Part shown: positions 49,445 to 64,000 of the stretch, piece after piece
How the letters are laid out: every line of letters starts with the position of its first letter
Numbering within the stretch: position 1 is the stretch's first letter
Source: Modestobacter sp. VKM Ac-2986
GTDB lineage: Bacteria; Actinomycetota; Actinomycetes; Mycobacteriales; Geodermatophilaceae
Assembly (NCBI RefSeq): GCF_026967795.1
Contig: NZ_JAPVBH010000001.1
Coordinates: 485,028 to 549,027, forward strand
Direction: 5' to 3'
DNA length: 64,000 nucleotides
Made by a program: the position numbers and the translations under genes
Notes under the pieces: generated by a model
Database searches by the model: none
Seen by the model: only the letters and a program-made list of their open reading frames with translations
What the model was told of the DNA's origin: nothing

Positions 49445-50508
49445 GGGTCGTGTGGAACTCGTTCAACGGCCGGTACTCCGACAACCCGCGCGCGCTGTAC
49501 GAGGCGCTGCGGGCGCGCGGGGGCGGCGAGGAGCACGTGTGGCTCGCCGACCCGCGGCACGCCGCGGCCTTCCCCGCCGACGCGGTGACCGTGCCGATCG
49601 GGACCCCGGCCGCCGTGGCGGCGCTGGAGTCCGCCGACGTCCTGGTGGCCAACACGCACATCCAGCTCGACGAGTGGCGCAAGCCGCCCGGTGCGCGGTA
49701 CCTGCAGACCTGGCACGGCACGCCGTTGAAGCGGATCCACCGCGACGCCACCTCGGTGCCCCCGGACGACGTGATGGCCGTCCTCGACGATGACATCGCC
49801 CGCTGGGACTGGCTGGTCACCCCGGGCGGCGAGGGGACCCGGCTGCTGCGCTCGGCCTTCGGGTACACCGGTGCGCTCCTGGAGATCGGCTACCCGCGCA
49901 ACGACGTCCTGCTCGCCCCCGACCGGGACGCGCACCGGGCACGGGTGCGGGCGGCGCTCGGCATCACCGAGGGCACGACCGCGGTCCTCTATGCCCCCAC
50001 CTACCGGGACGACGAGGCGGCGCCGGGCGCCGAGGCCTCGCTCGGGCTGGACGTCGCGGCGCTGGCCGGGCGGCTCGGCGACGACGCCGTCCTGCTGCTG
50101 CGGCTGCACCACTACATGGGGCACCAGCAGCGGCCGGCCAGCAGTGGGCGGGTGCGCGACGTGTCCGGGCACCCGGACATCGCCGAGCTGTACCTGGCCG
50201 CCGACGTGCTGGTCACCGACTACTCGTCGTCGATGTTCGACTTCGCGGTGACGGGCAAGCCGATCGTGCTGTTCACCTACGACCTGGAGCACTACGAGGG
50301 CCGGCTCCGTGGCTTCACCTTCGACCTGCGCACCGGCGCGCCCGGGCCGGTCGTGCTCGACCAGGGTTCGCTGACCGAGGTGCTGCTCGACCTGCCGGGC
50401 GTGGCTGCGGCACACGCGGACGACCACGCGCGCTTCGTCGCACGCTGGTGCGCGCTGGAGGACGGGCACGCCAGCGAGCGGGTGGTCGAAGCGGTCTGGC
50501 CCGGCTGA
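49441..50508 (+). CDS. CDP-glycerol glycerophosphotransferase family protein (TagB/TagF-like)
   Basis: A 355-aa glycosyltransferase-B-fold protein from ATG 49441, overlapping the glucosidase stop by 4 nt. YLQTWHGTPLKRIHRDA (about 77-93), YPRNDVLL, AVLYAPTYRDDE and LVTDYSSSMFDFA are the signature blocks of CDP-glycerol:poly(glycerophosphate) glycerophosphotransferases. In wall teichoic acid synthesis these extend glycerol- or ribitol-phosphate chains. Finding it in a sugar-uptake operon is unusual; it might make a glycosylated phosphodiester polymer or compatible solute. It has no membrane span. Confidence 0.88.
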   Translation: MRVVWNSFNGRYSDNPRALYEALRARGGGEEHVWLADPRHAAAFPADAVTVPIGTPAAVAALESADVLVANTHIQLDEWRKPPGARYLQTWHGTPLKRIHRDATSVPPDDVMAVLDDDIARWDWLVTPGGEGTRLLRSAFGYTGALLEIGYPRNDVLLAPDRDAHRARVRAALGITEGTTAVLYAPTYRDDEAAPGAEASLGLDVAALAGRLGDDAVLLLRLHHYMGHQQRPASSGRVRDVSGHPDIAELYLAADVLVTDYSSSMFDFAVTGKPIVLFTYDLEHYEGRLRGFTFDLRTGAPGPVVLDQGSLTEVLLDLPGVAAAHADDHARFVARWCALEDGHASERVVEAVWPG

Positions 50509-50569
50509 GACCGGCCGGCTCTCCGCCCCGCGGCCTCCGCGCCGGCATCGGGTCCGTCGACCGCCCGTC

Positions 50570-51346
50570 TCACATCGCGCCGCTGACCGCCTGTGCTGCG
50601 GCCATCACCGCGGTGGCGAACTGCTCCTGTCTGGGCACGACCCGGTACGTCGGCCCGGAGATGCACATCGCGGCGATGGGTGACCCCTCGGAGTCCACGA
50701 TCGGGGCGGCGAACCGTGTGACCCCGTCGTTGGCGTCGAACCCGGCCCAGCCGCGGTCGCGGGCCTCGTCGAGCTCGCTCATGATCCGGTCGATGTCGGC
50801 GTCCGAGAGCTGCACGTCCCCACCGGCGGAGGAGAGCTCGAGCGCGTGGTGGCGCGCCTCCCGGTCGAGCAGGCACAGGGCGGCCCGGCCGGCGGCGGTC
50901 TCGTGCACGAGCCGCTGCGTCGTGGACAGGGTCGAGCGCACGACCTGGGAGGAGGGGATGTAGTCGACGAACACCATGTACCCGCCGTCGAGCACGGCGA
51001 GGTGCACCTCCTCGTCGAACTTCTCGTGCAGCGCCTCCAGGTGTGGCCGGGCGACCGCCAGCAGGTCCTCGATGTCGGAGTAGCCGACCGAGAGCTGGCT
51101 GAGCCGGGCGGTCAGCCGGTAGCGCCGGTAGCCGTCCTGCCGTAGGTAGCCGGCGTCCCGCAGGATCGACAGGATCCGAGAGGCCGTGGACTTCTCCAGG
51201 CCGGTGTCCAGGGACACCTCGGTCACGCTCACGCCCCGCCGGCTGCCGGACCGGGCGACCGACTCGAGCACGGCCAGACCCCTGAGCAGCATGTTCGCCG
51301 TCTGCGGGCCGGGCTTCTCGTTGTCCGCGACTTCGAGTGCTGTCAC
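50570..51346 (-). CDS. IclR family transcriptional regulator
   Basis: A 258-aa regulator from GTG 51346. The winged helix-turn-helix runs ANMLLRGLAVLESVARSG, VTEVSLDTGLEKSTASRILS (about 41-60) and LRQDGYRRYRLT; the effector domain has EEVHLAVLDGGYMVFVDYIP and GRAALCLLD. It is divergent from the reductase-kinase-transporter-dehydratase genes, with a perfect dyad between them that overlaps its own promoter region. It probably represses both directions until a pathway metabolite binds. Confidence 0.93.
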   Translation of the reverse strand: MTALEVADNEKPGPQTANMLLRGLAVLESVARSGSRRGVSVTEVSLDTGLEKSTASRILSILRDAGYLRQDGYRRYRLTARLSQLSVGYSDIEDLLAVARPHLEALHEKFDEEVHLAVLDGGYMVFVDYIPSSQVVRSTLSTTQRLVHETAAGRAALCLLDREARHHALELSSAGGDVQLSDADIDRIMSELDEARDRGWAGFDANDGVTRFAAPIVDSEGSPIAAMCISGPTYRVVPRQEQFATAVMAAAQAVSGAM

Positions 51347-51371
51347 GAGTCCTCCGCTCGAACGGACGTGA

Positions 51372-51401
51372 TTGACACCACCGAGGAGGCGTCGCTACGG
51401 T
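51372..51401 (+). promoter_or_regulatory. Candidate promoter for the aldo/keto reductase gene
   Basis: TTGACA (51372-51377), an 18-bp spacer and TACGGT (51396-51401). The IclR-type dyad begins 22 bp after the -10 box, placing it downstream of the start site. On the other strand TAGATT at 51405-51410 is a candidate -10 for the regulator gene. Confidence 0.5.
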
Positions 51402-51423
51402 CCGAATCTACCAGACGGGACGG

Positions 51424-51442
51424 TGTTGCATGCGATGCAACA
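51424..51442. promoter_or_regulatory. Perfect dyad, candidate IclR operator 1
   Basis: tgttgcat-gcg-atgcaaca, a perfect 8-3-8 inverted repeat between the divergent IclR and reductase genes. It would cover the -35 zone of the IclR promoter on the minus strand and lie just past the reductase start site, fitting dual repression. The same half-sites recur at 54196-54212. Confidence 0.7.
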
Positions 51443-51491
51443 TCTCGTCGGGGGACAGCGCCGTCCACCTACCTCGGGGAGCACCTCTCCT

Positions 51492-52382
51492 ATGTCCATC
51501 AACGTCACACCCGACACCTCTGCGCCGGTCGGCGCGGCGGACCCCACGACGGTCGCGCTCGCCGACGGCCGGTCCATCCCCAGGGTGGGGCTGGGCGTGC
51601 TGCGCGTCGCCTCCGACGATGCCGCAGCCTCCGTGCGGTCTGCCCTCGAGGCCGGTTACCGGTCCATCGACACGGCCGCCGTCTACGGCAACGAGGAGGG
51701 GGTGGGGCGGGGGATCCGCGAGTCGGGGGTCGACCGGGAGGACGTCTTCCTCACCACGAAGGTCTGGAACACCGACCACGGCTACGAGGAGACGCTCGCG
51801 GCCTTCGACAAGAGCGTCACCCGGCTCGGCGTCGACCACGTGGACCTGTACCTCGTCCACTGGCCGATGGCCCACCTCGGCCGGATCCAGGACACCTGGC
51901 GTGCGCTGTCGGAGATCAAGCGGCAGGGCCGGGCGCGGTCGATCGGGGTGTCGAACTTCCTGGTCAAGCACCTGGAGCTGCTCCGTGCCGAGTTCGACGA
52001 GCAGCCGGTGCTCAACCAGATCGAGCTGCACCCCTGGATGCAGCAGCACGAACTGCGCGCCTACCACCAGGCGCACGCCATCGTCACCGAGGCCTGGAGC
52101 CCGCTCGGGCAGGGGAAGCTGCTGGACGAGCCGGTGCTCGCCGAGATCGGCGTCCGGCACGGCAAGAGCCCGGCCCAGGTCGTCCTGCGCTGGCACCTGG
52201 ACCTGGGCCACGTGGTGATCCCCAAGTCCTCGAACCCCGACCGCATCCGGCAGAACCTCGACGTCCTGGACTTCACGCTGACCGAGGACGAGCACGCGCG
52301 GCTGGCGGCGATGAACCGGGACCACCGCATCGGGACCCATCCGGACACGCCGCCCACCAACGGCCTCCCCGCCGGCCACTGA
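51492..52382 (+). CDS. Aldo/keto reductase
   Basis: A 296-aa NADPH-dependent reductase from ATG 51492. The catalytic tetrad is visible: Asp in SIDTAAVYGNEE with Tyr four residues on, Lys in FLTTKVW, His in LYLVHWPMAH. SIGVSNFLVKHLE and the cofactor motif VVIPKSSNPDRIRQNL complete the AKR family pattern. The open frame extends upstream through the operator, so this ATG is the sensible start. It would reduce or oxidise a sugar or sugar-derived carbonyl in the pathway encoded downstream. Confidence 0.92.
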   Translation: MSINVTPDTSAPVGAADPTTVALADGRSIPRVGLGVLRVASDDAAASVRSALEAGYRSIDTAAVYGNEEGVGRGIRESGVDREDVFLTTKVWNTDHGYEETLAAFDKSVTRLGVDHVDLYLVHWPMAHLGRIQDTWRALSEIKRQGRARSIGVSNFLVKHLELLRAEFDEQPVLNQIELHPWMQQHELRAYHQAHAIVTEAWSPLGQGKLLDEPVLAEIGVRHGKSPAQVVLRWHLDLGHVVIPKSSNPDRIRQNLDVLDFTLTEDEHARLAAMNRDHRIGTHPDTPPTNGLPAGH

Positions 52383-52413
52383 CCGGCCCGTGCGCAGAGA
52401 CCGAGGAGTGGAC

Positions 52414-52467
52414 ATGGACGAGCAGGCAGAGCTGCACGACGCTGCGGCCACCGGGAGTGGGCGATGA
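52414..52467 (+). CDS. Possible 17-aa leader or remnant peptide coupled to the kinase gene
   Basis: ATG 52414, after a good ccgaggag site, opens a 17-codon frame (MDEQAELHDAAATGSGR) whose stop overlaps the kinase start as ATGA. It could be a translational-coupling leader, or the last trace of a deleted gene between reductase and kinase. No homology can be judged at this length. Confidence 0.35.
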   Translation: MDEQAELHDAAATGSGR

Positions 52468-54182
52468 CGCGACTGGTCAATGAGCCGGTGGAGTTCGCCG
52501 CCCAGGCTCTCAGCGGCTTCGCCGGAGCGCACCCCGACCACGTGCTCGCGGTGCCCGGCGGGGTGGTCCGCGCCGGTGAGCCGGCCCGCGGGCAGGTGGC
52601 GATCGTGCTGGGGGGCGGGTCCGGGCACTTCCCTGCCTTCGCGGGGTGGATCGGGCCGGGCCTGGGGCACGGGGCCGCCTGCGGCAACGTGTTCGCGTCC
52701 CCGGCGGAGACGCAGGTGCTCTCCGTCGCCAGGGCCGCGGAGTCGGGTGGGGGCGTGCTGTTCCTCCCCATCAACTACGCCGGCGACATCCTGCACTTCG
52801 GTGCCGCGCGGGACGTGCTGGACGCCGACGGGGTGCCGGCCCGCATGGTGGCCGTCACCGACGACATCGCCTCAGGTGGCGACGGCGAGCACGCGCAGCG
52901 GCGTGGCATCGCCGGCAGCTTCCTGGTGGTCAAGGTGGTCGGTGCGGCCGCCGAGCGCGGCTGTTCGCTGGACGAGGTCGAGCGGATCGCCCGCCGGGCC
53001 AACGAGGCGACACGCTCGTTCGGGGTCGCCTTCTCCGGGTGCACCCTGCCCGGGGCCGACCGTCCGCTCTTCGAGGTGCCCGCCGGGCAGGTGGCGGTGG
53101 GCCTGGGGATCCACGGCGAGCCGGGCATCGCCCAGCGCCCGCTCGGCTCGGCCGACGAGGTCGCGGACCTGGTGGTGGACGGGTTGTTCGACGAGCGCCC
53201 GCCCGAGGCGGGGCGGCGGGTCGCCGTCCTGGTCAACGGCCTCGGTGCCACGAAGTACGACGAGCTCCACGTGGTCTTCGCCCGCGTCGCGGTACGGCTG
53301 GAGCAGGCGGGGATGGTCCTCGTCGCGCCGGTCGTCGGTGAACTGGTCACCAGTCTGGACATGGCCGGTCTCTCGGTGTCGCTGATGTACCTCGACGACG
53401 AGCTCGAGTCGGGCTGGCTGGCCGGTGCGGACACGCCGGCGTTCTCCCGTGGGCCCGCTGCTGCCGCTGCTCCCCGCCGGGTGCTGCAGCCGCAGGAGTC
53501 GCCGGCGGGGTCGGTGTCGGCAGGGTCGCCGGCGTCCCACGCGGTGGCGGTCCGGTTGGTCGGGGCGCTGGCCGGCGCCCGGGCAGCGGTGCTGGCGGAG
53601 GAGTCGGCCCTCGGTGAGCTCGACGCAGTCGCCGGCGACGGGGACCACGGTGCCGGGATGGCCCGGGGGATCACCGCTGCGCTGCGTGCCGCACAGGACG
53701 CGGTGGCTGCCGGCGCCGGCGCCGGCAGCGTGCTCGCCGTGGCGGGCCAGGCGTGGTCCGACGTCGGTGGCGGGACCTCCGGCGCGCTCTGGGGGGCTGC
53801 GCTGCGGGAGGCGGGGCAGGTCGTGGGCGACGAACGTCTGCTCGGCGGGCCGGACCTGCTGGCCGCGGTGGCGGCGTTCCGCGAGTCCGTCCAGGCCCGG
53901 GGCGGAGCGCGCCCGGGTGACAAGACCATGGTCGATGCGCTCGTGCCCTTCGCCGAGGCGCTGCAGGCGGCCGTCGCCGGCGACGCGCCGATGACCGCTG
54001 CCTGGGACGCCGCTGCGACCGCCGCCGATCACGGCGCCAGGAGGACGGCCGGCTACCCGGCCCGGCTGGGGCGTGCGCGTACGCACGGCGCCAGCTCGGT
54101 CGGGACGAGCGACCCGGGTGCCGTCTCGTTCGCCCTGGTCGTCCGCGCTGTCGCGGACGTCCTCGCGGCATCGCCGGAATAG
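52464..54182 (+). CDS. Dihydroxyacetone-kinase family protein, fused DhaK-DhaL (erythrulose kinase-like)
   Basis: A 572-aa ATP-dependent ketose kinase. The DhaK domain (1-330) has LGGGSGHFPAFAGWIG, INYAGDILHFGAARDVL and His217 in GIHGEPG, which binds the substrate carbonyl covalently. A 30-residue linker leads to DhaL (about 360-570) with the ADP-Mg motif AGDGDHGAGMARG (Asp392, Asp394) and VGGGTSGALWG. The variant NYAGDILHFG, instead of the NYTGDxxNF of true DHA kinases, is shared with tetrulose kinases such as erythrulose kinases. Start overlaps the 17-codon frame. Confidence 0.9.
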   Translation: MTRLVNEPVEFAAQALSGFAGAHPDHVLAVPGGVVRAGEPARGQVAIVLGGGSGHFPAFAGWIGPGLGHGAACGNVFASPAETQVLSVARAAESGGGVLFLPINYAGDILHFGAARDVLDADGVPARMVAVTDDIASGGDGEHAQRRGIAGSFLVVKVVGAAAERGCSLDEVERIARRANEATRSFGVAFSGCTLPGADRPLFEVPAGQVAVGLGIHGEPGIAQRPLGSADEVADLVVDGLFDERPPEAGRRVAVLVNGLGATKYDELHVVFARVAVRLEQAGMVLVAPVVGELVTSLDMAGLSVSLMYLDDELESGWLAGADTPAFSRGPAAAAAPRRVLQPQESPAGSVSAGSPASHAVAVRLVGALAGARAAVLAEESALGELDAVAGDGDHGAGMARGITAALRAAQDAVAAGAGAGSVLAVAGQAWSDVGGGTSGALWGAALREAGQVVGDERLLGGPDLLAAVAAFRESVQARGGARPGDKTMVDALVPFAEALQAAVAGDAPMTAAWDAAATAADHGARRTAGYPARLGRARTHGASSVGTSDPGAVSFALVVRAVADVLAASPE

Positions 54183-54195
54183 CGCGTCTCACTAC

Positions 54196-54212
54196 ATGCA
54201 ACGCCGTTGCAC
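54196..54212. promoter_or_regulatory. Candidate IclR operator 2
   Basis: atgcaac-gcc-gttgcac: the half-sites of operator 1 in everted orientation, one mismatch, with the same 3-bp spacer length. It covers the -35 zone of the extended -10 promoter just downstream. Confidence 0.6.
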
Positions 54213-54216
54213 ACGG

Positions 54217-54225
54217 TGATACAGT
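54217..54225 (+). promoter_or_regulatory. Extended -10 promoter of the peptide-type ABC operon
   Basis: TGA-TACAGT is an extended -10 element with no good -35 box, 125 nt before the binding-protein gene. Operator 2 occupies the -35 position, so bound regulator would block polymerase. Confidence 0.45.
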
Positions 54226-54349
54226 TCACATCACGAGGGACGCCGCGAGAGCCCGAGCGACGCCTCGGGCGCAGACCCCACCGCGCACGGTTCGACCACA
54301 CACACTGCCCACTCGGCGCTCTCACGGCGCCGCCGGAAAGAGGACGAGG

Positions 54350-55909
54350 ATGAAGTCAACGACGAGTTCATCACCGCTGAACCGAGCCCTTCGTGGCGTC
54401 GGAGCAGCCGTGTCGGCGGGGTTGCTGATGATGACGGCAGCCTGTGGCGGGGGCGCAGGCGCGGACGCCGCGGGGGCGCCGAGCACGGTGTCGATCGGTT
54501 ACGCCTACGCGCCCGAGACGTTCGACCCCATGTACGCCAACGCCGGGGCCCAGGTCAGCGCACACATGCACGCGATCTACGGCGCCCTCATCGAGCGCGA
54601 CGCCCAGGGTGTCGAACGCCCCGGCATGGCCGAGTCGTGGGAGTGGGAGGACGCCCAGACGCTGCGTTTCGACCTCCGGCCCGGCGTGAAGTTCACCGAT
54701 GGCGAGGACTACGACGCCGAGGCGGTCAAGAAGTGGCTCGACTACGGCCGCACGGCCGAGGACACGCCCTACAGCAACCTCGACGCCATCGAGAACGTGG
54801 TGGTCGTCGACCCGCTGACGGTCCGGCTGGAGCTCAGTCGCCCCGACCCGCGCCTGACCAAGTTCTTCGTCGGGCACATGGGGGCGGTGCCCAGCCCCGC
54901 GGCACTGGACTCCGGTGACCTCGGCATCCACCCGGTCGGTGCCGGCCCCTACACGCTGGACGAGGGGCGGACGACCACCGACAACACGTACACGTACGTG
55001 AAGAACCCCGACTACTGGGACGCAGCCCGCTTCGACCACGACGAGCTGGTCATCAAGATCTACACCGACGCGAACGCCATGTACAACGCGCTGGTCTCCG
55101 GTCAGGTCGACGTCGGGTACGGCAACGGCAGCAACTTCGCCGCCGCCCAGTCGACGGACCTCGAGGTCTTCTCCCAGCCGCAGAACGCCAACGGGATCGC
55201 GCTGTACGACCTCGCGGGCGCCAACGTCCCCGCCCTGGCCAGCAAGGAGGTCCGGCAGGCCCTGAACTGGGCCGTCGACCGGAAGACCATCATCGACACG
55301 GTCTTCCAGGGCCAGGGGACGCCGAGCGCGCTCGCCTTCACCCCGGGCAGTGGCCCGGGCTACGACGAGTCCCTCCTGGACCACTACGGCTACGACCCGG
55401 CGAAGGCCAAGAGCCTGCTCGCCCAGGGTGGCTACCCCGACGGGTTCTCCTTCTCGGCCGTCACGCTGTCGAAGGACCAGCCGATGGCCGAGGCCGTCGC
55501 CGGCTACCTGGGTGAGGTCGGCGTCCAGATGGAGCTCATCGTCCGGCCCCCGGGCGAGACGGCCAACACCGACATCGGCAAGTACGACGCGGCAGCGGTC
55601 GCGCTCGGTCTGGCGGACTCCTTCGCGACGCCGCCCAACCTCTGGCTCGGCCCGGCGACCGCCAACAACCAGCGCGGCTTCGAGGCACCGGAGATCCGGG
55701 CGCTCTACGACAAGGCCGTCATGACCACCGGCGAGGAGCAGGCGGCGCTGATGGACGACATCGCCGCCGCGGCCGTCGAGGGCGCGTACAGCGTGCAGGT
55801 GGGCTACGTGAACTCCCTGACCTACTACGACCCGGACAAGGTCACCAACATCATGGTGCTCCCGGGACACGGTGGTCCGTACATCCTCGAGGGCCTCGAC
55901 AAGCCCTGA
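54350..55909 (+). CDS. Peptide/opine-type ABC transporter substrate-binding lipoprotein (family 5)
   Basis: A 519-aa SBP family 5 lipoprotein from ATG 54350 after aggacgagg. The signal peptide ends in lipobox MTAAC (Cys about 32). The fold shows YAPETFDPMYANAGAQV, ALIERDAQGVERPGMAESWE, LRPGVKFTDGEDYDAEAVKK and VGAGPYTLDEG, the standard DppA/OppA landmarks. Family members bind peptides, nickel, or oligosaccharides and sugar acids; in this gene neighbourhood a sugar-derived ligand is likelier than a peptide. Confidence 0.93.
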   Translation: MKSTTSSSPLNRALRGVGAAVSAGLLMMTAACGGGAGADAAGAPSTVSIGYAYAPETFDPMYANAGAQVSAHMHAIYGALIERDAQGVERPGMAESWEWEDAQTLRFDLRPGVKFTDGEDYDAEAVKKWLDYGRTAEDTPYSNLDAIENVVVVDPLTVRLELSRPDPRLTKFFVGHMGAVPSPAALDSGDLGIHPVGAGPYTLDEGRTTTDNTYTYVKNPDYWDAARFDHDELVIKIYTDANAMYNALVSGQVDVGYGNGSNFAAAQSTDLEVFSQPQNANGIALYDLAGANVPALASKEVRQALNWAVDRKTIIDTVFQGQGTPSALAFTPGSGPGYDESLLDHYGYDPAKAKSLLAQGGYPDGFSFSAVTLSKDQPMAEAVAGYLGEVGVQMELIVRPPGETANTDIGKYDAAAVALGLADSFATPPNLWLGPATANNQRGFEAPEIRALYDKAVMTTGEEQAALMDDIAAAAVEGAYSVQVGYVNSLTYYDPDKVTNIMVLPGHGGPYILEGLDKP

Positions 55910-55987
55910 CCGCTCACGGCACGAGGTGTCGGCGGCTCCCGCCAGGTGGCGGGGCCGCCGGCACCTCCCGCACAGGATCGAGCCCTC

Positions 55988-56923
55988 ATGCGGTACCTGC
56001 TCACGCGGCTGGCCTACGCCCTCCCCATGTTGTTCGGGGTGTCGTCCCTGGCCTTCCTGCTGCTCAACCTGCTCCCCAACGACATCGCCCAGATCAAGGC
56101 CGGCGAGGACGCCACGCCGCAGCGGATCGCCGAGATCCGGGCCGGCCTCGGGCTCGACCGGCCGGTGCTGGAGCGCTACTGGGACTGGCTCAGCTCCGTG
56201 CTCCGCGGTGACCTGGGCGAGTCCTGGCACAACGGGCAGCAGGTGGTCGACGGCATCCTCGCCACGGCGCCGGTGACCCTGTCCATGGTCGTGCTGTCCC
56301 TGCTGCTGTCGCTCCTGGTGGGGGTGCCGATCGGGGTCGTGGCCGCAGTCCGCGGAGGAGTGCTGGACCGTGTCCTGGTCAGTTCGGCGGTCGTCGCACT
56401 TGCCGTGCCGAACTTCTGGCTCGCGCTGCTCATGGTGTACGTCTTCGCACTCAGCCTCGGCATCGTCCCCGCGACCGGCTACGTGCCCCTGGACGTCGAC
56501 CCCGGGCAGTGGGTGCTCCACCTGGTGCTGCCGGTCATCGCCGTCGCGTCGGTGGCGGTCTCCGCGATCGCCCGGCAGACGCGCTCGGCGATGCTGGAGA
56601 ACCTCGACCGGGACTACGTGCGCACGCTGCGGGCCACCGGCATCGGCGAGTGGTCGGTCGTCTACAAGCACGCGCTCAAGAACGCCGGCGTCCCGATCCT
56701 CACGACGCTGGGCATCCAGTTCGTCAACCTCTCCGGCGGCTCGATCATCGTCGAACAGGTCTTCGCCGTCCCCGGCCTGGGCCAGTACACGATGACCGCG
56801 CTCGCCCGCAACGACGTCCCGGTCGTGCTCGGCGTGCTCGTCGTGACCGCGATCGCCGTCGTCCTCATCAACCTCGTGGTCGACCTGTTGAACTCGGCCG
56901 TCAACCCGAAGGTGCGCGCATGA
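55988..56923 (+). CDS. ABC transporter permease, DppB type
   Basis: A 311-aa permease from ATG 55988 with the DppB layout: an N-terminal span (RYLLTRLAYALPMLFGVSSL), a periplasmic loop, GDLGESWHNGQQV, and five further spans. The ATPase-coupling EAA loop is YVRTLRATGIGEWSVVYKHALKNA (about 216-239). It pairs with the permease half of the downstream fused protein; the genes overlap by 4 nt (ATGA). Confidence 0.94.
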   Translation: MRYLLTRLAYALPMLFGVSSLAFLLLNLLPNDIAQIKAGEDATPQRIAEIRAGLGLDRPVLERYWDWLSSVLRGDLGESWHNGQQVVDGILATAPVTLSMVVLSLLLSLLVGVPIGVVAAVRGGVLDRVLVSSAVVALAVPNFWLALLMVYVFALSLGIVPATGYVPLDVDPGQWVLHLVLPVIAVASVAVSAIARQTRSAMLENLDRDYVRTLRATGIGEWSVVYKHALKNAGVPILTTLGIQFVNLSGGSIIVEQVFAVPGLGQYTMTALARNDVPVVLGVLVVTAIAVVLINLVVDLLNSAVNPKVRA

Positions 56924-58911
56924 GCATCGAGCTCGCCACCGAGACCGCCGGGGGACCCGGCGACACCTCGCCCGTGCCGGTCCGCCACCGCTCGCACGCG
57001 GTCGCGCGGCTGCTCCGCCGGCCAGGGGCGGTGCTGTGCCTGAGCTGGGTCGTCCTGGTCTTCGTCGCCAGCTGCGTCTTCCGGCTCCTCGACCTCGGTC
57101 GGCCGCTGGAGCAGAAGCTCATCGACTCGTACCAGTCGCCCAGCGGTGACCACCTGTTGGGCACGGACATGCTCGGTCGCGACGTGCTCGCCCGGCTGCT
57201 CTACGGCGGCTGGGAGACCCTGGCCGGGGCGGCCGTCGCGGTGGCCATCGCCATCGTGCTGGGCACGGTGCTCGGCCTGGCCGCGGGCTACGTCGGCCGG
57301 GCGGTCGACACGGTCGTCAACTGGCTGCAGGACATCCTGATCACCCTGCCGACCATCCTCGTGCTGCTCGCGGTGGCCACCGTGCTGGGCAACAACGTCT
57401 GGGCCGCCATGATCGTGCTGGGCGTGCTGATGTCAGCGACGTTCATCCGGCTGGTGCGCGCCTCGACCCTCGCCGTGCGGGAGGAGCTCTACGTCGACGC
57501 GGCGAAGGTCGCCGGCCTGTCGACCGCCCGCATCCTCGCGCGGCACGTGCTGCCCAACGCCATGGCACCGGTGCTCATCCAGGGCTCCGCTGCCCTGGGC
57601 GCGGCCCTCGTCGTCCAGGCGGGGCTCGGCTTCCTCGGCCTCGGTGCGCCACCGCCGGTCCCCAGCTGGGGCGGGATGATCGCCGAGGCCGCCAACGCCA
57701 TGAGCATCCAGCCATGGCTGCTCGTCCCGTCCGGCGGGATGATCATCCTCACGGTCCTGGCACTCAACCTGCTGGGCGACTACCTGCGCGACGAGCTGTA
57801 CGCCTCCCGGACGACGTCCCCCGAGCACGCCCGCCGGCGTCCGGCTCGGGGCCCCCAGCAGGCTCCGGTGGGGGTCCCCGAGGCCGGGCCCGACGCGCTG
57901 GTCGCGGTCCGCGACCTGACGGTGTCCTTCCCGGTCGGCGACCGGCTCGTGCCCGTCGTCAGCGGGATCTCGTTCACCGTGCGTCGCGGCGAGGTCGTCG
58001 GGCTGGTGGGGGAGTCCGGCTGCGGCAAGACGATGACCGGCCTGTCGCTCATCGGGCTCGTCCCCGAGCCGGGCGTCGTCACCGGCCGGATGCAGGTGGC
58101 CGGGCACGCGGTGGACGCCGGCCCGCGCTCGTTCCGTGGCCTGCGCGGCACCAGGATCGCGCTCATCTCCCAGGAGCCCATGGTCGCCCTCGACCCGTCG
58201 TTCACGGTGGGCAGCCTGCTCACCGAGGCGCTGCGGTCGCACGGCCGCAACCGGGCCGACGCCCGCACCCGGGCCCGGGAACTCCTGGAGCTGGTGGGCA
58301 TCCCGCGGATCGAGGACGTGCTGCGGTCCTATCCGCACCAGCTGTCGGGGGGCATGGCGCAACGCGTCGCGATCGCGCTGGCCATCAGCGGTGACCCGGA
58401 GCTGCTCATCGCCGACGAACCGACCACGGCGCTGGACGTCACGGTCCAGGCCGAGATCCTCGACCTGCTGCGTGACCTGCAGCAGCGGCTCGGCATGGGC
58501 CTGCTCCTCATCACCCACGACCTCGGGGTCGTGGCCGACATCTGCACGCGGGTGATCGTCATGTACGCCGGTGAGATCGTCGAGGAGGCGCCGGTCGGCC
58601 AGCTGTTCGACCAGCCGCGGATGCCCTACACCCGGGCGCTGATGGCCTCGACGCCCGTGCTGGACGTGGTGCAGGAGCTGCACGGGATCCCGGGCACGGT
58701 GCCGTTGCCGGCGGCCTGGCCCGACCACTGCCGGTTCGCCGCCCGGTGCGACCTCGTCGTCGATCGTTGCCGCAGCGGGCCGGTGCCCCTCGAACCGGTG
58801 GCTGTCGGCCACGAGGTCCGGTGCGTCCGGTCCGCCGAGCTCGCGCTGACACCGGCCACCGTGTCGCTCGAGACGCCGGCCGTGCGCCGCCAGCCGGTGG
58901 GTGGTCGGTGA
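56920..58911 (+). CDS. Fused ABC permease-ATPase (DppC-DppD type)
   Basis: A 663-aa natural fusion. Residues 1-295 form a DppC permease: a first span near 38-56, [20 protein letters not shown] (81-100), five more spans and an EAA loop at 191-213. About 30 residues of Arg/Pro/Ser-rich linker follow. Residues 327-650 form a DppD ATPase with Walker A GESGCGKT (364-371), signature LSGGMAQR, Walker B LLIADEP and the C-terminal Cys motif [16 protein letters not shown]. Usually these are two proteins. No frameshift or stop separates them. Confidence 0.93.
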
Positions 58912-60002
58912 TGGCCCACCAGGCGGTCGAGGGTCTCCCGGGCACCGACCGGGCGGGCGCCCCCGCGGCGCTCCTGCAGATCGAGGACCTCGCGGTCGAC
59001 TACCGGCTGCGCGGCCGGCGGACCTTCCGTGCCATCGACGGGGTGAGCGTGTCGGTGCAGCCCGGGGAGACGGTCGGGCTCGTCGGCGAGTCCGGCTCCG
59101 GCAAGTCGACCATCGGACGGGCGGTGCTCGGGCTGGCCAAGACGGCTGCCGGCTCGATCGAGTTCCAGGGCCACGAGATCAGCGGGCTGTCCCGTCGACG
59201 CCGGGCCGCCCTCGCCGGTGACCTGCAGGTCGTCTTCCAGGACCCGTACAGCTCGCTGAACCCGGCCCTGACCATCGGGCAGATCCTGCGCGAGCCCCTG
59301 CAGGTGCGCAGGAAGCTCTCCGCCCGGGAGGCCCAGGCGGTGGTGGTCGACCTGCTGACGCGCGTCGCGCTCCCGGCGGACGCGGCCGACCGCTACCCGG
59401 GTTCCTTCTCGGGTGGTCAGCGGCAGCGGATCGCCATCGCCCGGGCCCTGTCGGTGGGCGCCCGGCTCATCGTGTGCGACGAGAGCGTCAGTGCCCTGGA
59501 CGTCTCCACCCAGGCGCAGGTCCTCGCCCTCCTGCAGCGGTTGCAGGCCGAGCTCGGGGTCGCGTACCTGTTCATCTCCCACGACATCGCGGTGGTGCAG
59601 CACCTGTCCGACCGGGTGGTGGTGCTCTACCGGGGCCGGGTCATGGAGCAGGGACCGGCGGACCGGGTGTGCTCCACCCCGCTGCACCCCTACACCCGGC
59701 TGCTCCTGGACGCCGCTCCGGTCCCGCACCCGGAGCTGCAGCGGCGCAAGCGGGAGGCGCGGCTGGCCACGGCGGCCGCCGTGCCGACCGCGGTCGCCGC
59801 AGCCGGCGCGACCGGGTCGGTACCGGTCACCGCGGACGCTTGCCCCTTCGCCGCGCGGTGCCCGTTCGCCGAACAGGTCTGCACCCAGCGGCGGCCGGCC
59901 CTGACCGGCATGGCGGGTGTGCAGGTCCAGTGCCATCTGTACGACGAGACCTCCGGGCACACGCGTGCCGGGACGGTCGACCCGGCCATCGGCATCCGAT
60001 GA
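58911..60002 (+). CDS. ABC transporter ATP-binding protein, DppF type
   Basis: A 363-aa ATPase from ATG 58911, sharing one base with the previous stop (TGATG). Walker A GESGSGKST (59-67), QVVFQDPYSSLNP as Q-loop, SFSGGQRQRIAIARAL, Walker B LIVCDES and FISHD are intact. The C-terminal oligopeptide-transporter region ends in the Cys motif ACPFAARCPFAEQVC. It forms the heterodimeric motor with the ATPase half of the fused protein. Confidence 0.94.
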   Translation: MAHQAVEGLPGTDRAGAPAALLQIEDLAVDYRLRGRRTFRAIDGVSVSVQPGETVGLVGESGSGKSTIGRAVLGLAKTAAGSIEFQGHEISGLSRRRRAALAGDLQVVFQDPYSSLNPALTIGQILREPLQVRRKLSAREAQAVVVDLLTRVALPADAADRYPGSFSGGQRQRIAIARALSVGARLIVCDESVSALDVSTQAQVLALLQRLQAELGVAYLFISHDIAVVQHLSDRVVVLYRGRVMEQGPADRVCSTPLHPYTRLLLDAAPVPHPELQRRKREARLATAAAVPTAVAAAGATGSVPVTADACPFAARCPFAEQVCTQRRPALTGMAGVQVQCHLYDETSGHTRAGTVDPAIGIR

Positions 60003-60058
60003 CGGGGACGGAGCCGGTCGCCACCGTGTCGACCGGATCGACGGAGGGAGAACAGACG

Positions 60059-60883
60059 ATGCGCATCGAGCCGGAGGCCTCACTGCTGGAGGCGATGACA
60101 CCCGAGTGGACCGGTGAGCGCTTCGCCAACGGGCGGCCCCGGGTGGGCGACGACCTGCTCGACCGGCTCCGCGGGATCACCGTCGAGCAGGCCTGGAAGC
60201 CGCTCAAGCACGCCGGGTACCACCACCAGTTCGTCGGTGGCTGGCAGGAGACCAACCCGGGCAAGGCCTTCGTCGGCCGGGCGGTCACCGCACAGTTCCT
60301 GCCCTACCGGCCCGACTTCGACGCCGTGGTGCTGGACGCCGGTCGGCGTGAGCAGCGATCGGGTGGCGCGGTCGTCAAGCAGAACTGGTGGGTCGTGGAG
60401 AGCCTCGAGCACGGCGACGTCATGGTCGTGGACATGTTCGGCAAGATCGAGCACGGCACCTTCATCGGTGACAACCTGGCGACCGCGGTCGCCACTCGGA
60501 CCGGGACCGGTGCCGTCATCCAGGGCGGCATCCGGGACGCCCAGGGCATCGCCGAGATGTCCTCGATCAACATCCTCCACCAGGGGTCGCACCCCACCGG
60601 GATCGGTGACGTCACGATCGCGGGCCTCAACACCCCGATCCGCCTCGGCGGCGTGACCGTGCTCCCCGGGGACGTCGTGCTCGCCACCCCCGCCGGGGTC
60701 AGCATCATCCCCCCGCACCTCGCCGAGGCGGTCGCCGTCCACAGCGAGGACACCCAGCAGCGCGACGTCTTCGGCAAGTCCCGTCTGGCCGAGCGGGTCT
60801 ACACCAGCGCCGACATCGACGTCCCGGAGTGGGGCCCGGAGGTCCAGGCGGACTTCGAGCAGTGGTGCCTCGCCCGCCAGTGA
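60059..60883 (+). CDS. RraA family protein (4-hydroxy-4-methyl-2-oxoglutarate aldolase/decarboxylase fold)
   Basis: A 274-aa RraA-fold protein. ATG 60059 is preferred for its GGAGGGAG site 8 nt upstream; ATG 59999, overlapping the previous gene, is the alternative. GDNLATAVATRTGTGAVIQG then GIRD (Arg159, Asp160) form the metal/oxoacid site of class II pyruvate aldolases of the HMG/CHA type. It is longer than plain RraA (about 160 aa). Beside an acid-sugar dehydratase it likely cleaves or decarboxylates a 2-oxo acid, or is a related sugar-acid lyase. Confidence 0.85.
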   Translation: MRIEPEASLLEAMTPEWTGERFANGRPRVGDDLLDRLRGITVEQAWKPLKHAGYHHQFVGGWQETNPGKAFVGRAVTAQFLPYRPDFDAVVLDAGRREQRSGGAVVKQNWWVVESLEHGDVMVVDMFGKIEHGTFIGDNLATAVATRTGTGAVIQGGIRDAQGIAEMSSINILHQGSHPTGIGDVTIAGLNTPIRLGGVTVLPGDVVLATPAGVSIIPPHLAEAVAVHSEDTQQRDVFGKSRLAERVYTSADIDVPEWGPEVQADFEQWCLARQ

Positions 60884-60926
60884 CCCTTCCTGCCCCGAAG
60901 CCGCCCACGATCCAGACGAGGACACA

Positions 60927-62216
60927 GTGACCACCGAGACCGGATTCGAGAACCGCATCAACACCCGCAGTCGGTCCAGCGACCTGCGGATCACCGACCT
61001 GCGGGTCGCCAAGCTCGAGGGTGTGCCCATGCGGCACACGATCATCCGCATCGACACCAACCAGGGGATCAGCGGCTGGGGGGAGGCCCGCGACCAGTCC
61101 AGCGTCAACTACGTGCTCATGCTCAAGAGCCGCCTGCTCGGGGAGAACCCGTGCAACATCGAGAAGGTCTTCCGCAAGATCCGGCAGTTCGGGGGCCCCG
61201 GTCGCCAGGGCGGGGGCGTCTCCGGCGTCGAGATGGCCCTGCTCGACCTGGCGGGCAAGGCCTACGACGTCCCGGCCTGGCTCCTGGCGGGAGGCAAGTA
61301 CCGCGACCGGATCCTGGTGTACGCCGACACCGAGGAGCAGCGCGACCCGGAGGCGATGGGCGCCAAGTTGCTGGCGCGTGAGCAGCAGGGCTTCAAGATG
61401 CTCAAGATGGACATCGGGCTGTCCATGCTCTGGGACGTGCCGGGTGCGGTCATCGCGCCGCCCCGCGAACGCACGCGCCGACCGAAGGACCTGCCGTTCA
61501 CGATGCACCCCTTCACCGGGACGCACATCACCAAGATCGGCGTCGACCACATCGCCGACTACGTGCGCCGGGTGCGTGACGTCGTCGGCTACGAACTCCC
61601 CATCGCCGCCGACCACTTCGGCTACATGGACGTCGACTCCTGCATCCGGCTCGCCCGGGCGCTCGAGCCCTACGCACTGGAGTGGCTGGAGGACCTCATC
61701 CCCTGGCAGTTCACCCAGCAGTGGCGCCAGTTGACCGAGTCCATCGCCACGCCGACCTGCACCGGCGAGGACATCTACCTCGCCGAGGGCTTCAAGCCCC
61801 TCCTCGACGCCCAGGCGATCCGCATCGCCCACCCCGACCCCGCATCGGCCGGCGGCATCATGGAGACCAAGCGCATCGGGGACCTGGCCCAGCCGTACGG
61901 GATCCCGATGGCCCTGCACCTGGCGGCGACACCGATCGCCACCATGGCCAGCGTGGCGATCGGCGCGTCGACGGAGAACTTCCTCGCGCTGGAGTTCCAC
62001 GCCGCCGACGTCGGCGACTGGGCCAGCCTGGTGACCGGCCTGCCGGAGACGATCATCGAGGACGGCTACATCACGGTGCCCGACGGCCCCGGCCTCGGTT
62101 TCGAGGGCATCAACGAGGAGGCGTTCCGCGCCCGGCTCGACGCCAGCGATCCGCTCTTCTTCTCCGAGACCGCGCACTGGGACTCGGAGTGGAGCTACGA
62201 CCGGCCGTGGGGATGA
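60927..62216 (+). CDS. Enolase-superfamily dehydratase (mandelate racemase/muconate lactonizing type)
   Basis: A 429-aa enzyme from GTG 60927. An N-terminal capping domain (1-125) precedes the barrel, with Lys160 in KMLKMDIG, metal ligands Asp229 (IAADHFG), Glu255 (EWLEDL) and Glu281 (TGEDIY), and base His331 (MALHLAATPIA). A long 180-205 loop (PPRERTRRPKDLPF) is unusual and may shape the substrate site. The group dehydrates sugar acids to 2-keto-3-deoxy acids; the acid is not predictable here. Last gene of the regulon. Confidence 0.88.
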   Translation: MTTETGFENRINTRSRSSDLRITDLRVAKLEGVPMRHTIIRIDTNQGISGWGEARDQSSVNYVLMLKSRLLGENPCNIEKVFRKIRQFGGPGRQGGGVSGVEMALLDLAGKAYDVPAWLLAGGKYRDRILVYADTEEQRDPEAMGAKLLAREQQGFKMLKMDIGLSMLWDVPGAVIAPPRERTRRPKDLPFTMHPFTGTHITKIGVDHIADYVRRVRDVVGYELPIAADHFGYMDVDSCIRLARALEPYALEWLEDLIPWQFTQQWRQLTESIATPTCTGEDIYLAEGFKPLLDAQAIRIAHPDPASAGGIMETKRIGDLAQPYGIPMALHLAATPIATMASVAIGASTENFLALEFHAADVGDWASLVTGLPETIIEDGYITVPDGPGLGFEGINEEAFRARLDASDPLFFSETAHWDSEWSYDRPWG

Positions 62217-62224
62217 GCTGACCC

Positions 62225-62266
62225 GCTCGGCCCCGCGGCGGCGCTCATCGCCGGCCGGGGCCGAGC
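62225..62266 (+). terminator. Branched hairpin after the dehydratase gene
   Basis: gctcggccccg (62225-62235) pairs with cggggccgagc (62256-62266), with an inner stem 62236-62240/62249-62253, right after the last gene of the sugar regulon. Confidence 0.65.
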
Positions 62267-62283
62267 GCTCGGCATGAGCTCCG

Positions 62284-62329
62284 TGGAGCGGGTGACGAGA
62301 ATCGAACTCGCACTGTCAGCTTGGGAAGC
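62284..62329 (-). other. Displaced 3' half of tRNA-Gly(CCC): integration-site scar (attL)
   Basis: On the minus strand this reads from the anticodon loop to the encoded CCA: gcttcccaagc (anticodon CCC), a variable region, the T arm gcgagttcgattctcgt, acceptor strand cacccgc, T and CCA (62284-62286). Nothing resembling a tRNA 5' half follows beyond 62330; the anticodon stem breaks at the third pair. This is the chromosomal 3' fragment left when an element integrated in the gene. It is not a working tRNA. Confidence 0.85.
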
Positions 62330-62378
62330 AGCGTGTTCATCCTGCGGCTCGTCTGTGTCCTTGCTGGTCAGCAACGAG

Positions 62379-62412
62379 ACAGGGCCCCGGACCTAGTCGT
62401 CCGGGGCCCTGT
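62379..62412 (-). terminator. Hairpin after the integrase gene
   Basis: acagggccccgga (62379-62391) pairs with tccggggccctgt (62400-62412), a 13-bp stem and 8-nt loop, 15 nt past the integrase stop and between it and the att scar. Confidence 0.65.
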
Positions 62413-62431
62413 GTGTCACTTGTGTGTCACT
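62410..62431. repeat. 11-bp tandem repeat at the integrase stop
   Basis: tgtgtgtcact occurs twice head to tail (62410-62420, 62421-62431), spanning the end of the integrase gene and touching its terminator. It may be an integrase arm site or a by-product of the element's end. Confidence 0.6.
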
Positions 62432-63590
62432 GCGCCCGGGTGCCGATCGGGGTCACCGTGCCGCTGGTGGTCGCCGTCAGCAGCATCGCGGAGATCTTCG
62501 CGGCCAGCGCGGTGTCCCGGTCGGCGGTGGAGCGCTGGTAGCGCAGCGCAGCGTCCGGGGAGCTGTGCCCCAGTCGGATCATCAGCTCCTTGAGCGTGCC
62601 GCCCGCCAGCCCAGCCATCGTGGCTGCGGTGGCCCGGGTGTCGTGGAAGGTCACGCCGGTGATGCCAGCGGCGGCGAGCGCCGGGCCCCAGACCTTCTTG
62701 TGCCAGTTGCCGTTGTTGAGCGCGCCGCCCTTGGGGCCGGTGAACACCAACGCGTCCGGCTCCGGGCCGACGTAGGTGTTCAGGTGCTCGACCAGCACCG
62801 GCATGACATGCGGCGGTACAGCCACCTCCCGGTGCGATGCCCGGGACTTGGTCCTGCCGACCACCCTGCCCTCCCCGGGCACCTGCGCGGCGGCCTGGTG
62901 GACGAGGACGCGACCGTGCAGCAGGTCGACGTGGCGGCGCTGGAGCGCGCCCAGCTCGCCGAACCGCAGCCCGACGTGGGCGCCGATCACGGCGACGGCC
63001 CGCCAGCGGGGCTCCATCGCGGCCAGGATGCGCGCCAGGTCCGGCAGTGAGATCGGCGGGCGCTCCCGGCGGGGCTCCTCCCCGGCGCCACGGATCACGC
63101 ACGGGTTGACCTTGACCAGGTCGTCCTCGACGGCGGTGGCGAGCGCGGCTCGGAGCAGCCGGTAGCACTTGGCGGCGGTGGACCGGCCGGGTCCATCCTG
63201 CCCGGTCATCGCCTCGTGCCACCGGCGCACGCGCTCCTTGGTGAGGTGGCGCAGCTCGACGTGCCCTAGCGCCGGGCCGATGTGCTTGCTGAGCTGGTGG
63301 CAGTACAGGGCGGCGGTCCGAGGGGCCAGCGGCTCGCCACGGACCGTGCGGTGGGTGATCCACGACGCCAGGTAGGCGTCCAGGCGGACGGCCCCGGCCC
63401 GGGGGTCCACGTAGTCGCCACGGGACAGGTCGGCCTGGGCCCGCGCCAGGGCCTGGACAGCCTGGGTCTTGGTGGCGAAGGTGCGAGACCGGACCTTGCC
63501 ATCGTTGTCCCGGTAGCGGATGCGCCACCGGCCCGACGGGAGCTGCTCGATCGAGCCGAAATCGCGGCGCTTGTTGGTCTTGCTGGTCAT
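62427..63590 (-). CDS. int: Site-specific tyrosine integrase
   Basis: A 387-aa phage/ICE-type integrase. An arm-binding N domain (FGSIEQLPSGRWRIRYRDND) and a SAM-like core-binding domain (about 65-165) precede the catalytic domain with Arg209 (VGLRFGE), Lys about 248, His316 and Arg319 (HDTR), His342 (LGHSS) and nucleophile Tyr351. ATG 63590 is preferred; a GTG 45 nt upstream is possible. It points toward the tRNA-Gly scar about 100 bp away, the normal place for the integrase of a tRNA-targeting element. Confidence 0.93.
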   Translation of the reverse strand: MTSKTNKRRDFGSIEQLPSGRWRIRYRDNDGKVRSRTFATKTQAVQALARAQADLSRGDYVDPRAGAVRLDAYLASWITHRTVRGEPLAPRTAALYCHQLSKHIGPALGHVELRHLTKERVRRWHEAMTGQDGPGRSTAAKCYRLLRAALATAVEDDLVKVNPCVIRGAGEEPRRERPPISLPDLARILAAMEPRWRAVAVIGAHVGLRFGELGALQRRHVDLLHGRVLVHQAAAQVPGEGRVVGRTKSRASHREVAVPPHVMPVLVEHLNTYVGPEPDALVFTGPKGGALNNGNWHKKVWGPALAAAGITGVTFHDTRATAATMAGLAGGTLKELMIRLGHSSPDAALRYQRSTADRDTALAAKISAMLLTATTSGTVTPIGTRAQ

Positions 63591-63612
63591 CGCGGTGTCC
63601 CTGGAGTTGAGG

Positions 63613-63625
63613 AAGCTGACAGTGC
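63613..63625 (-). repeat. att-related short repeat near the integrase
   Basis: aagctgacagtgc here is the exact reverse complement of gcactgtcagctt at 62310-62322 inside the tRNA scar, and cactgtcag recurs directly at 63708-63716. The three copies flank the integrase gene. They may be integrase arm sites or traces of earlier recombination. The 239-bp gap up to the next gene holds these and no gene I can support. Confidence 0.5.
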
Positions 63626-63829
63626 CTCTACGCACTCCGGAGCACCGGCGACAACCTGCGTGTGGCCGGAGAAGGTTGAACCTGCGTGCGCTGCTGCGCT
63701 AGGGGCTCACTGTCAGACCGCCGCCCGGCCCACCGACGGTGTCCACCGGCTCCCCGGATCGCGGCATACCAGCCGGCCCCGCATCTCGATCAAGCGCAGG
63801 ACCCCCACCGGCCCGGCCGAGGTCCTGAG

Positions 63830-64000
63830 CTACTCCTGATACTCCGGGTCGATCCACGGCCGGACGGCCAGGGCTACGGCCTCGTACATCCGGCTCAGCT
63901 CGGTGAAGTTGAGGTCTCGGCCTTTGTGGTCGCGGAAGACCACGGTGAGGGGCCAGTTCAGCTTGACCAAGAACTCGTCAGGCGCGGGACCCACGAACCG
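63830..64000 (-). CDS. Partial protein of the integrated element (cut by window edge)
   Basis: The last 56 codons of a leftward gene, open to the window end and stopping at TAG 63832-63830. The visible part reads ...LVKLNWPLTVVFRDHKGRDL and NFTELSRMYEAVALAVRPWI, ending DPEYQE. It uses codons such as TTG, AAA, CGA, GTA and TAT that are rarer elsewhere in the window, fitting a foreign gene. I do not recognise it. Cargo or replication functions of an integrative plasmid or prophage are possible. Confidence 0.6.
   Translation of the reverse strand, partial: RFVGPAPDEFLVKLNWPLTVVFRDHKGRDLNFTELSRMYEAVALAVRPWIDPEYQE

Follow-up and report, generated by a model that had tools for sequence, protein, structure and literature searches.

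Which compound does a compact block of genes in the actinomycete Modestobacter sp. VKM Ac-2986 serve to degrade, and how did the block come to lie where it does? The stretch of DNA that we analysed, hereafter the window, comprises 64,000 nucleotides of contig NZ_JAPVBH010000001.1 and contains an operon that encodes, among others, an enolase-family dehydratase and an RraA-like protein. Gene content, absence of the segment from the corresponding site of a sister genome, a unique palindrome, linkage of the dehydratase to RraA-family genes and the distinctness of the dehydratase subgroup were all computed, and from them we infer a full degradation scheme. Our favoured, though tentative, reading is that an acquired operon under the control of an IclR-family regulator would degrade one sugar acid by reduction, dehydration, cleavage by the RraA-like protein and phosphorylation.

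The operon and its genes

All coordinates are positions in the window, and open reading frames (ORFs) were taken from analysis scripts that apply a simple ORF rule without a trained gene finder. Pfam and NCBIfam profile searches of the window proteins revealed a divergent IclR gene on the minus strand followed by eight genes on the plus strand, which are spaced by at most 167 bases and include two overlapping pairs. The gap between the IclR gene and the reductase gene measures 145 bases. The same searches bear out the gene set named in a first-pass annotation made from the sequence alone (IclR, reductase, DhaK-DhaL, Dpp-type importer, RraA-like protein and enolase-family enzyme), and the outer coordinates given there, 50570 and 62216, are gene ends.

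50570..51346, minus strand: IclR-family regulator, divergent from the operon (PF01614 and PF09339 above cut-off; no NCBIfam cut-off reached)
51424..51442, no strand: perfect palindrome TGTTGCAT-GCG-ATGCAACA, candidate IclR operator (one genome site at up to 2 mismatches)
51492..52382, plus strand: aldo-keto reductase, nearest models 2,5-diketogluconate reductase (PF00248; DkgA 315.8 bits, cut-off 425)
52464..54182, plus strand: DhaK-DhaL fusion kinase of the DAK family (NF011049 above cut-off; Dak1, Dak2; GIHGEPG with His217, GDGDHG)
54350..55909, plus strand: family-5 solute-binding protein (SBP_bac_5) with a lipoprotein-like N-terminus (PF00496; LLMMTAACGGG at the N-terminus)
55988..56923, plus strand: Dpp/Opp-type permease B (PF00528, PF19300)
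56920..58911, plus strand: permease C fused to ATPase D in a single frame of 663 amino acids (PF00528 at 115-290, PF00005 at 348-503)
58911..60002, plus strand: second ATP-binding cassette (ABC) ATPase, DppF-like (PF00005, PF08352)
60059..60883, plus strand: RraA-like protein, candidate class II aldolase/decarboxylase (PF03737; Arg159-Asp160 aligned with the Arg-Asp of 3noj)
60927..62216, plus strand: dehydratase of the mandelate racemase/muconate lactonizing enzyme (MR/MLE) type with an Asp229-His230 motif (PF13378 and PF02746 above cut-off; model pLDDT, the predicted local distance difference test, 87.3)

No glycosidase, ring-cleavage gene, demethylation gene or semialdehyde dehydrogenase was found among the operon proteins with Pfam and NCBIfam. 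RpiB- and TPI-like isomerase genes are likewise missing from the operon by these searches, which did not extend to the rest of the genome for them.

A distinct dehydratase subgroup

Both MR/MLE domains of the dehydratase pass their thresholds, the C-terminal one with 155.0 bits (PF13378, cut-off 29.4) and the N-terminal one with 34.7 (PF02746, cut-off 22). Of the NCBIfam models listed, ten in number and including those for galactonate, ManD, gluconate/galactonate, arabinonate, rhamnonate and talarate/galactarate, not one reached its cut-off; the top model, galactonate dehydratase PRK14017, gave 187.4 bits (cut-off 311). The first-pass annotation had allowed that close, tested orthologues of the dehydratase would overturn its view of an undescribed pathway. 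None surfaced. Among solved structures, 2qq6 is nearest both in sequence (180 bits) and in fold (29% identity); it carries no named function. Among the papers listed by searches of mostly open-licence literature, none was recognised as describing the gene set or the dehydratase subgroup, in line with the earlier proposal.

One genome scan recovered 26 relatives of 44-57% identity in Chloroflexota, Acidobacteriota, Clostridia, Kiritimatiellae and Bacteroidota, and the matches listed also include relatives of about 50% on Rhizobium plasmids. Closer to the host, searches in even draws rather than whole groups gave relatives of 65-68% in 7 other genomes of the 397 drawn from its order, of 49-61% in 4 other genomes of the 394 drawn from its class, and of 61% in 1 other genome of the 396 drawn from its phylum, a genome already counted in the class draw. 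Relatives of the dehydratase thus occur in six phyla besides that of the host.

These proteins share a motif. A His directly follows the first metal ligand (Asp-His) in 39 of 39 members, the window protein included (36/36 plus 3/3 more). Asp-x-His was read by eye in 15 of 16 neighbouring paralogues from the same loci, the remaining one having Asp-Cys-Gly, and in the five solved relatives with printed alignments (out of 141 matches) the His comes one position later than in the window subgroup. Enzymes of the enolase superfamily use three acidic metal ligands and a His-Asp pair at the barrel strands, and GalD/ManD-type dehydratases among them carry the Asp-x-His motif. D229, H230, E255, E281, D304 and H331 are invariant in all 19 aligned members and lie in, or at most 3 residues from, the barrel strands of an AlphaFold2 model (mean pLDDT 87.3). 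Together, these sequence features point to an apparently distinct, widespread and uncharacterised subgroup of dehydratases. In one locus (L020), three MR/MLE genes stand in tandem, and two of these have Asp-x-His.

An "unusual 180-205 loop" had been singled out in the dehydratase. Between family members this stretch differs strongly in how long it is and in its residues, and the model gives pLDDT values below 50 for positions 181-195, so that the loop carries little information on the substrate.

The motif also bears on a different reading, in which the MR/MLE enzyme would not dehydrate but would act on an anhydro or lactone sugar acid as a cycloisomerase or epimerase. Enzymes with these activities belong to the superfamily, the fold matches include 3,6-anhydro-D-galactonate cycloisomerase (5olc), lactonase-family genes lie near several relatives, and the subgroup motif is unlike the one in neighbouring paralogues and in the five solved relatives with printed alignments. 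However, the titles of the top 20 fold matches read MR/MLE-like or (putative) dehydratase, and 5olc follows only at rank 21 with 24% identity. We regard a cycloisomerase or epimerase as improbable and retain dehydration as the preferred activity.

Linkage to an RraA-like protein

To place the pair in context we used 38 relative loci, namely the 26 of the genome scan, 1 plasmid locus (from 20 listed of 1039 records) and 11 from relatives of the host; their lengths range from 3.7 to 29 kb, and since several of the source organisms are close kin, the loci are not independent. An RraA-family gene was found in 26/38 loci (tblastn, E 1e-5) and one close to the window protein (at least 150 bits) in 14/38. 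In 8/38 loci, it lies directly upstream of the dehydratase gene on the same strand and within 200 bases, as it does in the window; these are 4 loci of Chloroflexota, 1 of Acidobacteriota and 3 of relatives of the host. For scale, the host genome has 2 RraA-family genes in 4.19 Mb. This linkage, along with the sugar-acid families that lie near the relatives, supports the earlier proposal that the window carries a locally regulated catabolic operon of the sugar-acid type in which the dehydratase and the RraA-like protein act together. The pair, widespread and apparently uncharacterised, is the supported core of the operon.

A second RraA type, 27-30% identical, was seen in L040 and L042-L045, where it lies on the opposite strand just beyond the dehydratase gene. 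Genes beside it look, by eye, like those for a GntR regulator, a sugar ABC transporter and another MR/MLE enzyme, this one with Asp-x-His.

Arg159-Asp160 of the RraA-like protein is invariant in 15/15 aligned proteins of the window type and matches the Arg-Asp of the HMG/CHA aldolase 3noj. In that aldolase, according to the part of the report available to us, Arg-123 is essential and Asp-124 binds the metal (PMC5065237). The RraA-like protein is therefore a candidate class II aldolase or decarboxylase as judged by its conserved residues.

The resemblance raises the possibility that the operon serves aromatic or lignin-fragment side-chain catabolism, with the RraA-like protein acting as an HMG/CHA-type aldolase on a ring-cleavage product. 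The regulator has its best NCBIfam score with the PcaR family (125.1 bits), and an available excerpt on Paenibacillus describes adjacent RraA-family and UxuA genes proposed to act on a ring-cleavage product (PMC12673573). However, the operon has neither a ring-cleavage nor a demethylation gene, and the PcaR score misses its cut-off of 284.75 just as the HMG/CHA aldolase models miss theirs (TIGR02798, 63.8 bits against 304.5; NF006731, 67.2 against 179). An aromatic substrate is hence very improbable.

A second RraA-family enzyme suggests a different reaction. FlDet, the only tested RraA-family case that we found on a keto-deoxy sugar acid, is a dehydratase/decarboxylase that converts 2-keto-3-deoxy-D-glucarate to alpha-ketoglutaric semialdehyde (PMC8563752, available in part). 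By analogy, the window protein could convert a keto-deoxy-hexarate produced by the MR/MLE enzyme to alpha-ketoglutaric semialdehyde, with the reductase and the kinase working in a separate C3 branch. This is unlikely, as the operon proteins include no semialdehyde dehydrogenase and the window protein has 274 residues against 237 in FlDet (PMC8563752), a comparison by length. Lyase activity of the aldolase kind on the product of the dehydratase remains the preferred role.

Reductase, kinase and transporter

The reductase has 3o0k as its nearest solved structure. The kinase passes NF011049 (PRK14479, the general DAK subfamily) with 687.7 bits against a cut-off of 492 and contains PF02733 and PF02734; in the host's family, kinase homologues (E 1e-100) occur in 2/107 other genomes, in a different context. 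A DhaK-DhaL homologue elsewhere (G029:C9:33867-35585, L062) has one TGA codon within the aligned stretch.

The first-pass annotation had called the kinase tetrulose-type. Spelled out, its scheme would take a longer sugar acid or glycoside to a C4 aldehyde that ends up as erythrulose phosphate. DAK clusters linked to RpiB and TPI have a tetrulose/tetritol role, and the kinases of L065, L101 and L102, which adjoin RpiB-/TPI-like genes, share about 50-51% full-length identity with that of the window. Moreover, the excerpted account of Mycolicibacterium describes a route from erythritol and threitol through erythrulose and erythrulose 4-phosphate to erythrose 4-phosphate (PMC12780249). Against this, a tree of 11 kinases (the window kinase and 10 plasmid or family relatives, without L103 and without any biochemically tested kinase) places the window kinase on a long branch outside the well-supported L065/L101/L102 clade; it joins only L100, an unannotated kinase of an Arthrobacter plasmid, with weak support (67/83) and possibly as a long-branch artefact. 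The operon also lacks the isomerases and a glycosidase, and a reduction ahead of a carbonyl-binding kinase is implausible. The kinase passes the general DAK model, but the tetrulose label is not supported, and we consider the tetrulose route quite unlikely.

The substrate of a DhaK-type kinase is bound through its carbonyl. Reduction of a sugar to a polyol removes this group, and the product would be no substrate for such a kinase, which makes "reduce, then phosphorylate" chemically awkward. Of the scheme first proposed, sugar-acid catabolism by the dehydratase and the RraA-like protein is supported, and the reduction and phosphorylation of the remaining short sugar is not. In our favoured reading, carbonyl binding means that the reductase acts ahead of the dehydratase and that the kinase follows the lyase.

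As for the transporter, homologues of the Dpp/Opp-type permeases and ATPases (24-44% identity) occur in five Chloroflexota loci (L007-L009, L020 and L031), indicating that the transporter class is partly shared. Binding-protein homologues of 33-36% identity (E 1e-60) were found in 12/107 other family genomes.

Insertion site and probable acquisition

Among genomes of the host's family, the dehydratase was found in 1/112 (E 1e-60) and the RraA-like gene in 1/108 (E 1e-40), in both cases the genome of the window itself. The gene to the left of the operon has homologues in 22/23 genomes of the genus, its own included, with close homologues only in G094 (89%) and G091 (84%). The alignment with the sister genome G094 ends at window base 50518 and restarts 9 bases on within the 3' end of tRNA-Gly(ccc). 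G094 thus presents an empty site in which the left-flank gene adjoins the tRNA-Gly end. In the window, the operon is followed by a 46-base repeat of the tRNA's 3' portion, a tyrosine-integrase element of ~5.4 kb and the intact tRNA-Gly gene.

50519..62283, no strand: inserted segment with the operon, missing at the sister site (alignment to G094)
62217..62273, plus strand: strong hairpin 3' of the last gene, possible transcript end, without a T run (folding energy against shuffles)
62284..62329, minus strand: attachment-site remnant, 46 bases that repeat the 3' portion of tRNA-Gly(ccc) (the complete gene lies at 67761-67834 if the window numbering is continued)

At the same tRNA, G091 carries a different island of ~14 kb with an integrase-like gene. 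The presence of different islands at one tRNA-Gly suggests an insertion hot spot, with the operon filling approximately 50519-62283. Furthermore, the empty sister site and the presence of the dehydratase in only 1/112 family genomes make the operon look acquired, and on these sequence comparisons it was probably gained by horizontal transfer; loss of the operon from the relatives is the less probable alternative. An attachment repeat left of the operon was not found, as no 11-base piece of the repeat occurs in 50401-50800 in the direct orientation, the only one covered. The repeat pair brackets the adjacent integrase element, not the operon. This element was noted in window positions 62284-64000 and in positions 1-6862 of L095. 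Base composition was considered as proof of transfer and set aside as uninformative, given that the G+C content of the operon (0.69-0.77) is similar to that of the flank.

Predicted regulation and transcript end

The perfect 8-3-8 palindrome lies within the gap between the IclR and reductase genes (51424-51442). No comparable palindrome arose in 100 shuffles of the window, and the site is single in the whole 4.19-Mb genome with up to 2 mismatches allowed, which fits a local regulator with one target. Among 98 loci, the palindrome (7-base arms, 0 mismatches) recurs only in L061 and L075, both of which are this same genome. It is likely the operator of the IclR protein, a predicted binding site. 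Downstream of the last gene, 62210-62285 folds with -49 kcal/mol (z -2.59; 2/200 shuffles equally low). A promoter scan of 51300-51560 revealed no sigma-70-like promoter; a terminator-like match in the same scan was disregarded as it lies inside the IclR gene.

Neighbours and export signals in relative loci

Neighbourhood clusters were built by single linkage for 35 of the 38 loci, with identities taken from one or two representatives only. Of these 35 loci, 7 have a UxuA-type protein, 7 an epimerase-family protein, 7 a short-chain dehydrogenase/reductase and 6 a lactonase-family protein. Three PfkB proteins that were picked (L046, L072 and L073) have 2-keto-3-deoxygluconate (KDG) or KDGal kinase as their best models, all below cut-off. 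The UxuA, lactonase and KDG-kinase-like neighbours back dehydratase chemistry and point to no particular substrate. An identity of the epimerase-family neighbour C5 as uronate dehydrogenase was rejected, since no such name occurs in its 9 solved-structure matches (E 1e-8).

The dehydratase starts with a twin-arginine-like N-terminus in 14/35 relative loci, all from Bacteroidota or Acidobacteriota (L010, L012, L014, L016 and L021-L030). The regular expression, used without a trained predictor of twin-arginine translocation, matched 15 of 36 proteins, and L019 was judged spurious and dropped. A similar start was seen by eye in L072-L074 from the host's class. No twin-arginine-like stretch is present in the window dehydratase. 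The exported-looking dehydratases, along with the UxuA neighbour, hint that sugar acids may be dehydrated outside the cytoplasm in these organisms. The UxuA-type neighbour in L073 also has a twin-arginine-like N-terminus. The L072-L074 cluster combines a taurine/sulfonate-type permease (tested in L073), a KDG-kinase-like protein (tested in L072 and L073), a distant RraA and an exported-looking dehydratase.

Proposed pathway

In the favoured reading, the Dpp-type transporter would import a saccharide bearing a uronate or keto acid, and the reductase would turn its carbonyl into an alcohol to yield an aldonate. The dehydratase, going by its family and its conserved metal and catalytic residues, would then remove water to give a 2-keto-3-deoxy acid. 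Acting as a metal-dependent class II lyase, a role suggested by its Arg-Asp pair and its linkage, the RraA-like protein would cleave this acid to give pyruvate plus a short aldehyde; a six-carbon acid would give pyruvate and glyceraldehyde. Finally, the DhaK-DhaL kinase would phosphorylate this aldehyde, or dihydroxyacetone, and so yield a triose phosphate, a product for which no isomerase is necessary in the operon. The IclR protein would repress from the palindrome until the sugar acid or an intermediate binds to it. The first-pass annotation was right on the kind of system; its kinase label, its loop and its last steps are not supported.

Several observations weigh against this route. Homologues of the reductase, kinase and binding protein occur in 0/38 relative loci (E 1e-5; several contigs are short), and an IclR homologue in only 1/38 (L046, 25%). 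No conserved whole operon was therefore seen in these loci, and the pathway role of these proteins is deduced from the shared operon. Even the RraA-family gene was not found in 12/38 loci within the stretch covered. In other clusters, the pair lies near a KDG-kinase-like protein and not a triose kinase. Solved relatives of the binding protein carry peptides, opines, haem or metals. Only a D-series triose enters glycolysis directly, and phosphorylation of L-glyceraldehyde would not lead there. Lastly, FlDet is inactive on KDG in the available part of its description (PMC8563752).

Beyond the window, we think it possible, but doubtful, that a new sugar-acid route extends across six phyla plus that of the host, in which the Asp-His dehydratase subgroup would feed an RraA-type general sugar-acid lyase, partly outside the cytoplasm in Bacteroidota and Acidobacteriota. 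The window would add a reductase and a DhaK-DhaL kinase and would thereby parallel, in a bacterium, the galacturonate route of fungi. Proteins of the RraA family are common, and one paper describes their function as unknown where a species has no aromatic cluster (PMC5065237); recurrent pairing with one dehydratase subgroup makes that role directly testable. If true, such a route would supply non-phosphorylative pathways with a further family of sugar-acid lyases and point to a plant or algal sugar acid consumed in soils, the rumen and the sea. The full operon, if confirmed, would mean that such a route was transferred as a single regulated block.

Comparison with known systems

The clusters of L065, L101 and L102 resemble the operon in their kinase and differ in carrying RpiB-/TPI-like isomerases, of which the window operon has none. 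Galactonate dehydratase PRK14017, the top model of the window enzyme yet below cut-off, has Asp-x-His in place of Asp-His. FlDet shares the RraA family and a 2-keto-3-deoxy sugar acid substrate with the proposed lyase and differs in its flavobacterial alginate context (PMC8563752, in the part available). The HMG/CHA aldolase (PMC5065237, in part) likewise belongs to the RraA-like family with an aligned Arg-Asp, whereas it acts in an aromatic pathway and the window protein scores far below the cut-offs of its models.

A parallel in reaction order is fungal. Fungal galacturonate catabolism employs a reductase, an enolase-superfamily dehydratase and an aldolase, which to our knowledge is not an RraA protein. 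As far as the accessible description goes, GaaA, GaaB, GaaC and GaaD degrade D-galacturonate, with L-galactonate converted to a 2-keto-3-deoxy acid and then to pyruvate and L-glyceraldehyde (PMC5488244). The order proposed for the window, reductase, dehydratase and aldolase, is alike. In contrast, the fungal route ends in glycerol through a second reductase, whereas the window has a DAK-type kinase and would unite the whole sequence in one bacterial operon with its own importer and IclR regulator.

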